From a bacterium (lineage in GTDB: Bacteria > Patescibacteriota > Minisyncoccia > Phycocordibacterales > SBAW01): 41,672 nt of DNA. The stretch is taken from the NCBI GenBank assembly GCA_021839985.1, contig JAKBZO010000004.1, positions 1-41,672 on the forward strand, read 5' to 3'. How positions within the stretch are numbered: the first letter of the stretch is position 1; each line of letters begins with the position of its first letter. Positions 6,938-26,945 of the stretch are shown one piece after another. The notes beneath the pieces were generated by a model that had not been told where the DNA came from, made no database searches, and worked only from the letters and a program-made list of their open reading frames with translations. Position numbers and translations under genes: made by a program.

Positions 6938-7516
6938 ATGGAAACAGAAACAACGACCACTGAGAATACCACGAACACAACGCCGGCAGCGGAAGTTGCT
7001 TCGACAGCAGCGCCTCGCGAGAGCGAGCGCCGTGGCGGCCGCATAAAGCGCGAACGCCGTCCGTCATCGCGCCCGCCGCGCGCCCGCTCCGAGTTCGATC
7101 AGCGCATCATCGCGATGCGCCGCGTGACTCGCGTCGTCTCCGGCGGCCGCCGCTTCTCATTCAGCGTCGCTATCGTAATCGGCAATAAGAAGGGCAAGGT
7201 CGGCGTCGGTATCGGCAAAGCGGGCGACACGTCGCTCGCGATCGACAAGGCCGTGCGAAGCGCCAAGAAGAATCTCATCACCGTTCCGCTCACGAAGGAC
7301 TCGTCGATCGCTCATGATGTGTCGGCAAAGTACTGCGCATCGGTCGTAGCGATCATGCCGGTCGCCGGCCGCGGTACGGTCGCCGGTTCGTCTATCCGCC
7401 CCGTGCTTGAATTGGGCGGCATCACCAACGTCATCGCCAAGATGCACTCCGGCAGCAAGAACACCCTCAACAACGCACGCGCCGCTATCGAAGCGCTCAA
7501 GACGCTCAAAGCGTAA
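6938..7516 (+). CDS. rpsE: 30S ribosomal protein S5
   Basis: RRVTRVVSGGRRFSFSVAIVIGNKKGKVGVGIGKAG; S5 motif. Confidence 0.97.
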   Translation: METETTTTENTTNTTPAAEVASTAAPRESERRGGRIKRERRPSSRPPRARSEFDQRIIAMRRVTRVVSGGRRFSFSVAIVIGNKKGKVGVGIGKAGDTSLAIDKAVRSAKKNLITVPLTKDSSIAHDVSAKYCASVVAIMPVAGRGTVAGSSIRPVLELGGITNVIAKMHSGSKNTLNNARAAIEALKTLKA

Positions 7517-7543
7517 CGTGATCGGTAATCAATTTCATTCACT

Positions 7544-15298: not shown

Positions 15299-15772
15299 AT
15301 GCATCCGAAAGAAGAAAAGACCCTTATTATCCTCAAACCGGACGCGCTCAACCGCGGTCTCGTCGGCGAGATCACCAAGCGATTCGAACAGAAAGGCCTC
15401 AAGATCGTCGGCATGAAGATGATGCAGCTCGATGATGCGATCCTCGAAGCGCATTACGCCCACATCGCGGACAAGCCGTTCTTCGCCGGCATCAAGAACT
15501 TCATGAAAGCATCGCCGGTCGTTATCATGGCGCTCTCCGGCATCAACGCAGTTGCGGCTGTGCGCCTGATTGTCGGTCCCACTAAAGCGTACGAAGCGAC
15601 GGCGGGAACCATCCGCGGCGACTTCTCGCTCTCCATGCAATCGAACATCGTCCACGCTTCCGACAGCATTGAGAACGGCCTCGCAGAAGTCGAGCGATTC
15701 TTTGAAGCAACAGAGATCTTCGAATACAAGCGCAACGACTTTGATTTCATCAACGCAGAAGAAACCTTCTAG
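15299..15772 (+). CDS. ndk: Nucleoside diphosphate kinase
   Basis: TLIILKPDALNRGLVGEI...; NIVHASDS active-site His. Confidence 0.93.
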   Translation: MHPKEEKTLIILKPDALNRGLVGEITKRFEQKGLKIVGMKMMQLDDAILEAHYAHIADKPFFAGIKNFMKASPVVIMALSGINAVAAVRLIVGPTKAYEATAGTIRGDFSLSMQSNIVHASDSIENGLAEVERFFEATEIFEYKRNDFDFINAEETF

Positions 15773-15781
15773 CTCTCTGCT

Positions 15782-15824
15782 GGTGCAACAAAAAACGCGG
15801 CTGTGCCGCGTTTTTTGTTGCACC
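15782..15824 (+). terminator. Strong terminator after ndk
   Basis: GGTGCAACAAAAAACGCGGC TGT GCCGCGTTTTTTGTTGCACC, perfect 20-bp stem. Confidence 0.92.
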
Positions 15825-15867
15825 CACCTCTTCCCTTGATTTCTTTTTTTGGAGTATTACACTTTAG

Positions 15868-16020
15868 AGAGGGCAGAGGAGGTAAATGTCCTTAAATCCA
15901 TTTTCAGGGAGCTCGGCGTTCTCCGACCATAAAGATCGAAGACAGGGCACCCACCTGGCATAAGCCAGACATTACCTCTGATGTCCTCGAAAGGATCGCT
16001 ACCAGTTGTAGCGATTTTTT
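15868..16020 (+). ncRNA. Candidate structured small RNA (about 150 nt), family unassigned; 6S-like or attenuator leader possible
   Basis: -35 TTGATT (15836-15841), 16-nt spacer, -10 TACACT (15858-15863); long-range stem GAGGGCA...TGTCCTC and GAGGTA(A)ATGTC...GACATTACCTC; side hairpin TGGC ATAA GCCA (15956-15967); terminator ATCGCTAC CAGTT GTAGCGAT TTTTT; no coding capacity. Confidence 0.65.
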
Positions 16021-16053
16021 CGTTCCATCACCCTCTTCTGCTATGATGTATCC

Positions 16054-17418
16054 ATGCCTACTACTATCACGTTCTGCGGCGGTGCCGGTTCAGTGACCGG
16101 TGCAAATTTTCTTCTTAAAACCGATCGTGCAGCGATCCTCGTCGACTGCGGTCTGCAACAGGGCGGCGAACTCACCGAAGGTATCAACTGGAAACCGTTT
16201 CCGTACGATCCGTCGATCATCGATGTCCTTTTTGTGACTCATTCGCATATCGACCATATCGGCCGCATACCGAAGCTGGTGCGCGATGGTTTTCGCGGCC
16301 GCATCATCTCGACCGAAGCGACGCGCGCGGTCGCTGGAGCGCTTCTGGAGGACAGCGCCATGCTTCTCGAGATCGTGGCGAAGCGCACCGAACACCCTAT
16401 TCTCTACGACGCGCATGATATCGAAGCGGCGATGAAATTGTGGGAAGGCGTGCCGTATCATACGCCGCAGAGTCTGCCGGATGGCCTCTCATTCGAATTC
16501 ATCGACGCCGGTCACATTCTCGGTTCAGCGATGGTAAAGATCTCGCGCGGCGGCCGCACGATCGTGTTCACCGGCGACTTGGGCGGTTCATCGGTGCTGC
16601 TGCCGCCGCGCGATTCCGCCGTGGGCGCGCAGTATGTGGTCATGGAGAGCGTCTATGGCGATCGCACGCATCCGTATGAAGATCCGAACACGCGCCGCGA
16701 CAATCTGCGCCGCGCGATCGTCGAGACCGCGCACCGGGGTGGAGTGCTGCTCATTCCCGCATTTGCGACCGAGCGCACGCAAGACCTCCTCTTTGAACTC
16801 CGCACTATCTACGCCGATGGCGGTATTCCCGAAGTGCCGGTCTACCTCGATGCGCCGCTTGCCGAAAAACTCACGGCATCGTTCCTCGCGCATCCGCAGT
16901 ACTTCAACGATGAAATGCATGCGCGCATCACGATGGGGGAGAACATCTTTTCATTTCCACAGCTGCATGTGGTCGCGGATACGGAAGCGTCGCATGCGCT
17001 TGACCAAGTACGCGGTCCCAAAGTGATCATCGCGGGGTCGGGTATGGCGCAGGGCGGCCGCGTTTTGCAGCATGAGAAGACCGTCCTGCAGGACCCTCAT
17101 TCAACGCTGCTCATCGTCGGCTACCAAGTGGCGGGCAGCCTCGGACGACGCCTCATCGACGGCGCAAAACAGGTGACCATCATGGGGGAGAAGATACCGG
17201 TGCACTGCCGTGTTGAACAGAATCTCGGTTACTCCGCGCACCTCGACGGTCCGCACCTCCTTGAGTTCATCGAAGAAGCGAAAGAGACGGTCGAGGAAGT
17301 ATTCGTGGTGATGGGCGAGCCGGTGTCGGCGGGATTTTTGGTGCAGCGCATGCGCGACCATCTCGGGATCAATGCGCGCGCGCCGGAGAACGGCAATTCA
17401 TTCCCGATCGAGTTGTAA
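16054..17418 (+). CDS. MBL-fold/beta-CASP metallo-hydrolase (RNase-like)
   Basis: GGAGSVTGANFLL, THSHIDHIGRIPKL, GHILGSAMV, GSGMAQGGRVLQH; beta-CASP motifs. Confidence 0.9.
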   Translation: MPTTITFCGGAGSVTGANFLLKTDRAAILVDCGLQQGGELTEGINWKPFPYDPSIIDVLFVTHSHIDHIGRIPKLVRDGFRGRIISTEATRAVAGALLEDSAMLLEIVAKRTEHPILYDAHDIEAAMKLWEGVPYHTPQSLPDGLSFEFIDAGHILGSAMVKISRGGRTIVFTGDLGGSSVLLPPRDSAVGAQYVVMESVYGDRTHPYEDPNTRRDNLRRAIVETAHRGGVLLIPAFATERTQDLLFELRTIYADGGIPEVPVYLDAPLAEKLTASFLAHPQYFNDEMHARITMGENIFSFPQLHVVADTEASHALDQVRGPKVIIAGSGMAQGGRVLQHEKTVLQDPHSTLLIVGYQVAGSLGRRLIDGAKQVTIMGEKIPVHCRVEQNLGYSAHLDGPHLLEFIEEAKETVEEVFVVMGEPVSAGFLVQRMRDHLGINARAPENGNSFPIEL

Positions 17419-21823: not shown

Positions 21824-21825
21824 GG

Positions 21826-22205
21826 TGGAGATGGGGAGAATCGAACTCCCGTGCAGTGGGTTATGAGAGAAGTGTCTACGATGCGTAGTTCATGTTGAAT
21901 GCTCAATGCGGTAGGTAGAACACGAACGAAATCCTACCGAACCAGAGTCTCGAAGTTTCGCCCCGCCGGCGAGACGATCAGCAGGGCAGAGTCTGTATAT
22001 TACACCGCGATCACACTACAGACATGGTGTGGACGGTGTCGGTTGGCTGGGGCCTAAAGTTAGGCGCGAGCGAACGCGAATTCCTGTGCCGAGAAATACG
22101 GCGAGGTAACTGAGTTTGCAGTTATGGGTCGCAAGGTTTTAAGGAGACTTGCACTCCTGCATCGCAACTTCTGTCAAAGATCCATTGTCTAGGCCAAGCA
22201 TCCCC
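21826..22205 (-). ncRNA. ssrA: Transfer-messenger RNA (tmRNA)
   Basis: 5' GGGGATG pairs with 3' CATCTCC (G3-U70 wobble); T-arm GGGAGTTCGATTCTCCC; tag ORF complement(22060..22119) GCA AAC...GCC TAA = ANSVTSPYFSAQEFAFARA; smpB adjacent. Confidence 0.92.
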
Positions 22206-26779: not shown

Positions 26780-26853
26780 GGGTGCGTAGCTCAGTTGGTT
26801 AGAGCACGGAGCTTATACCTCCGCGGTCCCTGGTTCGAGTCCAGGCGCACCCA
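26780..26853 (+). tRNA. tRNA-Ile, anticodon TAT (reads AUA)
   Basis: GGGTGCG/CGCACCC acceptor, D-arm GCTC..GAGC, anticodon arm CGGAG CTTATAC CTCCG, T-arm CCTGG TTCGAGT CCAGG; CCA not encoded; TATAAT at 26745-26750. Confidence 0.93.
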
Positions 26854-26945
26854 CGTTTGTTTTTAGATCGAGCGAGCGACGATGTTGTGCGAGCTGTTCA
26901 CAACTGCAAGCGGCTTCTCGGGGCGGTGCTATCCTTGAATCAAGG

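Follow-up and report, generated by a model that had tools for sequence, protein, structure and literature searches.

In this study we asked what is encoded between a nucleoside diphosphate kinase gene (ndk) and a gene for a beta-CASP RNase in a bacterium of the Patescibacteria (CPR). The window, by which we mean the whole stretch of DNA analysed (41,672 nucleotides), is contig C4 of a genome of 736 kb that is 95% complete. A first-pass annotation had described a compact unit of promoter, RNA and terminator at this place; it likened the rod with its central bubble to 6S RNA, the global brake on transcription, and favoured an independent small RNA over an attenuator. Could the unit be a 6S RNA gene in spite of its small size, or does it belong to the gene that follows it? 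From the comparisons reported here we consider it very probable that this is where the bacterium carries its 6S RNA gene (ssrS), in a compact form. The unit and its neighbours have the following parts:

15299-15772, plus strand: ndk, nucleoside diphosphate kinase, the upstream neighbour (Pfam NDK, 1.3e-47)
15782-15824, unstranded: long near-perfect inverted repeat with A- and T-run flanks at the end of ndk, like a bidirectional terminator (sequence)
15836-15863, plus strand: predicted sigma70-type promoter, with -35 TTGATT at 15836-15841, a 16-nt spacer and -10 TACACT at 15858-15863
about 15869-15871, plus strand: predicted transcription start
15869-15988, plus strand: putative 6S RNA rod, 120 nt (fold z; covariance models R1, R2 and R3)
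15869-15875 and 15982-15988, plus strand: outer closing stem, GAGGGCA / TGTCCTC (fold; helix 1 covariation in both alignments)
15878-15890 and 15968-15978, plus strand: inner closing stem P2, GGAGGTAA/TGTC with GACATTACCTC (fold, covariation)
15891-15906, plus strand: 5' side of the central bubble, 16 nt, CUUAAAUCCAUUUUCA (fold; family alignment)
15907-15952, plus strand: apical arm closed by GGGAGC / GCACCC (invariance, covariation)
15945-15958, plus strand: 6S core GGGCACCCACCTGG (aligns with the RF00013 consensus; motif scan with Rfam confirmation)
15953-15967, plus strand: 3' side of the central bubble, with the hairpin UGGC-AUAA-GCCA at 15956-15967 (fold, alignments)
15968-15988, plus strand: 3' strands of the inner and outer closing stems (fold)
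15994-16020, plus strand: intrinsic terminator GATCGCTAC/GTAGCGATTTTTT, a 9-bp stem followed by T6 (sequence, fold)
16042-16047, plus strand: -10 box TATGAT of the downstream gene, extended (TGCTATGAT), 6 nt 5' of the ATG
16054-17418, plus strand: beta-CASP metallo-beta-lactamase RNase, the downstream neighbour (Pfam Beta-Casp 5e-33, RMMBL 3e-9)

By sequence and fold, the promoter, the 120-nt rod with its central bubble and the intrinsic terminator together occupy 15836-16020. The primary transcript including the terminator is predicted to be about 150 nt long. The promoter (TTGATT-16-TACACT), closing stem, inner stem, 3'-side hairpin and U-tract terminator of the first-pass annotation were all found where it had placed them, while its 3x3 internal loop between the closing stems came out as about 2x3 in the minimum-free-energy structure. 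Its description of the promoter as consensus-like stood as far as the presence and position of the boxes go, but the -10 box agrees with TATAAT at just 4 of 6 positions, and this promoter was absent from the output of the automatic promoter scan. With the terminator included, RNAfold gave -64.4 kcal/mol compared with -40.7 +/- 4.0 for shuffled sequences (z -5.97, 0 of 200 shuffles as good), and the rod without the terminator also folded better than its shuffles (z -3.9). The minimum-free-energy and centroid structures concur on a closing stem, a large central bubble and an apical arm.

The RNA is conserved well beyond its own genome. Of 147 relatives searched with BLASTN, 31 gave a homolog (E <=0.1), a few of the weakest being chance matches within genes; the genuine ones are located between ndk and the beta-CASP gene. 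One member of the family (G021) was matched by BLASTN at 7419-7442, and in Ca. Adlerbacteria RIFCSPHIGHO2_02_FULL_54_18 (MEWV01000021.1) the core motif scan and model R1 gave a match at 7398-7517. In an alignment of 23 sequences the GGGAG, CACCCAC-like and CUUAA-like positions were invariant, CUUAA on the 5' bubble side being nearly so across the family, and the consensus fold showed two-sided changes in 14 of 22 pairs. R1, the covariance model built from these 23 family homologs, matched 234 of the 397 order genomes scanned (129 of 180 genera). A broader model, R2, was built from 38 sequences including that of the window. Weak R1 matches on the reverse strand, which occur at some loci because the rod is nearly palindromic, were excluded in building it. 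R2 matched 143 of 178 genomes of the order (109 of 135 genera) and 124 of 379 genomes in the phylum. About one fifth of the 178 order genomes scanned had no R2 match, and some nearly complete genomes of four families (f6, f25, f42 and f61) were matched by neither R1 nor R2. The GGG/CCC pairs of the apical arm are invariant in all sequences of both alignments (23/23 and 38/38), and its outer C-G, U-A and C-G pairs covary in both.

Covariation in related genomes, proposed at the outset as a check, proved to be strong. In the R2 alignment, 16 of 22 pairs showed two-sided changes, and the covariation score was 0.639 compared with 0.219 +/- 0.014 after shuffling (0 of 500), for an alignment that had been fitted to the structure; sliding it by 1-3 columns lowered the score to at most 0.105. 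An alignment made with MAFFT scored 0.402 compared with 0.215 for shuffles. A second R2 copy was seen in only 3 of the order genomes. Two tandem 6S copies lie at one locus (L250, G099:C10; 4001-4135 and 4201-4334, minus strand), and two copies are also present in G077 (C47, 2384-2515 and 2840-2968) and in G169. Bacillus likewise has two 6S RNAs, 6S-1 and 6S-2.

Is this conserved RNA related to 6S RNA by descent? At the gathering level, Rfam reported only a tmRNA and a tRNA in the whole window. The tmRNA (21824-22205, minus strand) encodes an unusual tag, ANSVTSPYFSAQEFAFARA, and the tRNA-Ile (26780-26854) has the anticodon TAT, which in bacteria is rarer than the modified CAT form. The window RNA was not reported by RF00013, the Rfam 6S model, even at E values up to 10, and a permissive regional scan gave chance matches only, mostly on the ndk terminator. 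The link to 6S runs through the relatives and through a further model, R3. The same core is present in the Rfam 6S consensus (GGGagc ... gggcaCCCACCUgg, in alignments of relatives). In the window the full core, GGGAGC...GGGCACCCACCUGG, spans 15907-15958; this is the diagnostic sequence that the first-pass annotation had failed to recognise. A scan with all 4227 Rfam families over 61 kb placed RF00013 exactly on the RNA and on the same strand at four loci (L053, L049, L048 and L046), with scores of 23-26 bits, under the gathering threshold of 46.4. The best E value among them was 0.053 when corrected for all families and about 1e-5 for one family named beforehand. Among 50 relatives RF00013 gave no match over the cut-off, and the sole weak match (G059) coincided with the R1 locus; no tested member of the order attained the gathering score. 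In the phylum, RF00013 matched 23 of 286 genomes, 3 of them over the threshold. One of the genomes over the threshold, G597, was matched by R2 at the same place, and R1 matched 15 of the 23 loci.

Further evidence came from an exact scan of GTDB genomes for the core (GGGAGC N25-55 GGGCACCCACCTGG). It returned many CPR loci and some chance matches in coding sequence, besides loci in Omnitrophota, Halanaerobiaceae, Firmicutes, Chloroflexota, Actinobacteria and others. Of the loci tested outside Patescibacteria, nine scored 50-106 bits with RF00013 and so exceeded its gathering score, and R1 matched 8 of the 9; for loci chosen by the motif, RF00013 is a test independent of the motif and R1 is not. 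The least circular test of 6S homology is R3, a model for which all 18 training 6S RNAs came from beyond the class; 12 of them exceed the Rfam threshold and 6 are below it but strong. Its top match in the source genome was 15858-15998 of the window, a weak one of 16.3 bits (E 0.35 for the genome and 0.02 for the window), and a second, chance-like match scored 16.1 bits. In the relatives R3 found matches in 32 of 40, with up to 40.6 bits, and nearly all of the best ones that could be checked lay at the R1/R2 locus. A phage collection gave no match. Since the covariance models agree in both directions and the core sequence is shared, we regard the RNA as homologous to 6S, as its shape had suggested at first sight. 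It has the rod, bubble and apical arm, a conserved core at the junction of bubble and apical arm, and the character of an independent, widespread and mostly single-copy gene.

Could it instead be an RNA of the Ms1 type, with 6S ancestry and shape but bound by core RNA polymerase in place of the holoenzyme? The Ms1 shape is related to that of 6S, and it took immunoprecipitation to tell Ms1 apart from 6S (PMC9130861); sequence does not reveal which form of the enzyme is bound. At about 300 nt, however, Ms1 RNAs are longer, and both ends carry additional hairpins (PMC9130861); the rod in the window is 120 nt long and its sole end hairpin is the terminator. The candidate also contains the 6S core, and its matches include 6S RNAs from many phyla; we find an RNA of the Ms1 type improbable.

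More improbable still is that the RNA acts in cis on the beta-CASP gene, as its leader or attenuator, for example to provide feedback on RNase synthesis. The RNA does lie just 5' of this gene on the same strand, and the order ndk-RNA-beta-CASP is maintained across much of the order. However, evidence from 77 homologs supports an independent gene with its own predicted sigma70 promoter and its own terminator. A -10 box with at least 5 of 6 matches was present no more than 18 nt before the body in 54 of them, compared with 8.8% at random positions, mostly 5-7 nt before the start of the model, and a terminator was found no more than 60 nt downstream in 55 of them, compared with 4.0% at random positions. 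Between two homologs that are 93% identical the terminator sequence has been replaced completely, so that it has no pairing partner in the body. In most relatives a separate -10 box precedes the start codon of the beta-CASP gene by about 6-8 nt, so near that the mRNA of this gene is probably leaderless. Instead of lying directly upstream and being co-transcribed, as a leader would, the RNA is separated from this gene by a gene-sized gap in most families: of 20 further families in the order, 19 have ndk directly upstream and 16 have beta-CASP downstream, almost always 449-760 nt off. Outside the class the beta-CASP gene was not found near the RNA, and ndk was found there rarely and at a greater distance. 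No cis-regulatory Rfam family was matched. The preference of the first-pass annotation for an independent small RNA is borne out by these observations. The ndk gene itself differs between genera. In the genus of the window it encodes 157 aa, about 70% identical to the ndk products of some other families, and in the sister genus (L005-L030) the same syntenic spot holds an ndk of about 190 aa with insertions and about 34% identity; such divergent forms at one spot suggest that ndk was replaced in place.

The least probable explanation, that an unrelated rod-shaped RNA resembles 6S by chance, could appeal to the low R3 score of the window RNA and its absence from the RF00013 reports, and is contradicted by the common core and bubble layout and by reciprocal models that match the same places across phyla. 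SRP RNA was set aside, the GGAA-capped SRP domain being absent, and RNase P on account of its size.

How might a 6S RNA of this kind work? According to studies in E. coli and B. subtilis, the 6S rod mimics an open promoter and blocks the holoenzyme, the -35-like region residing in the apical arm and a -10-like one in the 3' bubble (PMC8876501). At high NTP the polymerase starts a pRNA in the 5' bubble and runs on into P2; the refolding frees the RNA. In gamma-proteobacteria release is driven by a hairpin in the 3' bubble; in B. subtilis and A. aeolicus it is aided by pairing of the two bubble sides with each other, the collapse helix (PMC8876501). From this biology we infer polymerase binding and pRNA synthesis by the window RNA. 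Its rod would imitate an open promoter and occupy the active site of the sigma70 holoenzyme, with the apical arm taking the place of the -35 DNA upstream and the closing stem that of the downstream duplex. A rise in NTP would lead to transcription of a short pRNA from the 5' bubble side into P2. By comparison with B. subtilis and E. coli 6S, the template region is predicted at 15878-15890 (the 5' strand of P2), and our guess for the pRNA is 5'-AAGGACAUUUACC..., its first nucleotide lying opposite U15893 or U15892. The pRNA would open P2, and the RNA would refold and leave the polymerase.

The two bubble designs found in one family resemble the two known release switches. In the window form release would proceed through the 3'-side hairpin, UGGC-AUAA-GCCA, and no collapse helix is predicted. 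In sister-genus forms it would apparently proceed through a collapse helix between the bubble sides: the 5' side, AAGUG-aa-UCUACC, can pair with GGUAGACACUU, the end of which is the 3' strand of P2. With the P2 5' strand masked, 10-12 collapse pairs are predicted in 7 sister-genus sequences compared with about 2-5 in shuffled bubbles. The covariation score of the helix was 0.151 compared with 0.075 (0 of 500), with two-sided change in 2 pairs only, and measures based on pair counts did not go beyond shuffles. We consider a collapse helix likely in the sister-genus forms. We hypothesize that a minimal 6S RNA, one of the shortest in nature, is retained broadly in Patescibacteria, and that one family has switched between release by a 3'-bubble hairpin (the window genus) and by a collapse helix that competes with P2 (the sister genus); the chances of this hypothesis seem to us about even. 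If it is true, the change of design within one family shows how the pRNA-release switch evolves. The two bubble designs in one family also open the release mechanism to comparative testing.

What is new here is the 120-nt rod, the near blindness of Rfam to this RNA across the order, and the two alternative bubble designs in one family. As judged by our models, the compact 6S variant is order-wide, extends across the phylum and is almost unseen by the standard model; these genomes are consequently annotated as lacking 6S, and the models built here repair the missing annotation. A literature search returned no relevant paper on 6S in Patescibacteria or CPR, and an earlier mention may occur in the survey 'Dissemination of 6S RNA among bacteria'. 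That 6S is present in genomes which are very small and often host-dependent suggests that RNA-based pausing of the polymerase is worth keeping even there. Natural short forms also reveal what a working 6S RNA can dispense with.

Lastly, how does the RNA compare with known systems? The usual size of 6S RNA, about 160-200 nt, is a trait rather than a definition. The window rod, at 120 nt (about 150 nt with terminator), falls below it. The 6S RNA of A. aeolicus, of about 160 nt, is cited among the shortest known (PMC9130861), and an engineered 6S-1 truncated to 78 nt still completes its cycle in vitro (PMC8876501). The latter means that size does not define the family, and together the two make a natural compact 6S plausible. 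The RNA shares with the 6S RNAs of RF00013 the closing stem, central bubble, apical arm and core (GGGAGC...GGGCACCCACCU), its own predicted promoter and terminator, a mostly single copy per genome and reciprocal covariance-model matches. It differs from them in its 120-nt rod, set against a model of 187 positions, in scores below gathering throughout the order as tested, and in its neighbours, ndk and the beta-CASP RNase. B. subtilis 6S-1 likewise has a small 3'-bubble hairpin already in the free RNA (PMC8876501). It is about 190 nt long (PMC8876501). A helix similar to its collapse helix is possible in the sister-genus forms, whereas in the window form the hairpin is present and a collapse helix is not predicted. 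The Ms1 RNAs of Actinobacteria are also polymerase-binding, with a 6S-related shape and conserved synteny, but they stand apart in their length of about 300 nt, or about 230 nt in Streptomyces, in the additional hairpins at their ends and in binding the core enzyme (PMC9130861). In the truncated 78-nt 6S-1 a bubble between two short arms suffices for binding, pRNA synthesis and release, although this engineered molecule lacks the -35-like region and binds about 10x more weakly (PMC8876501). The window RNA, in contrast, is natural and retains a full apical arm.
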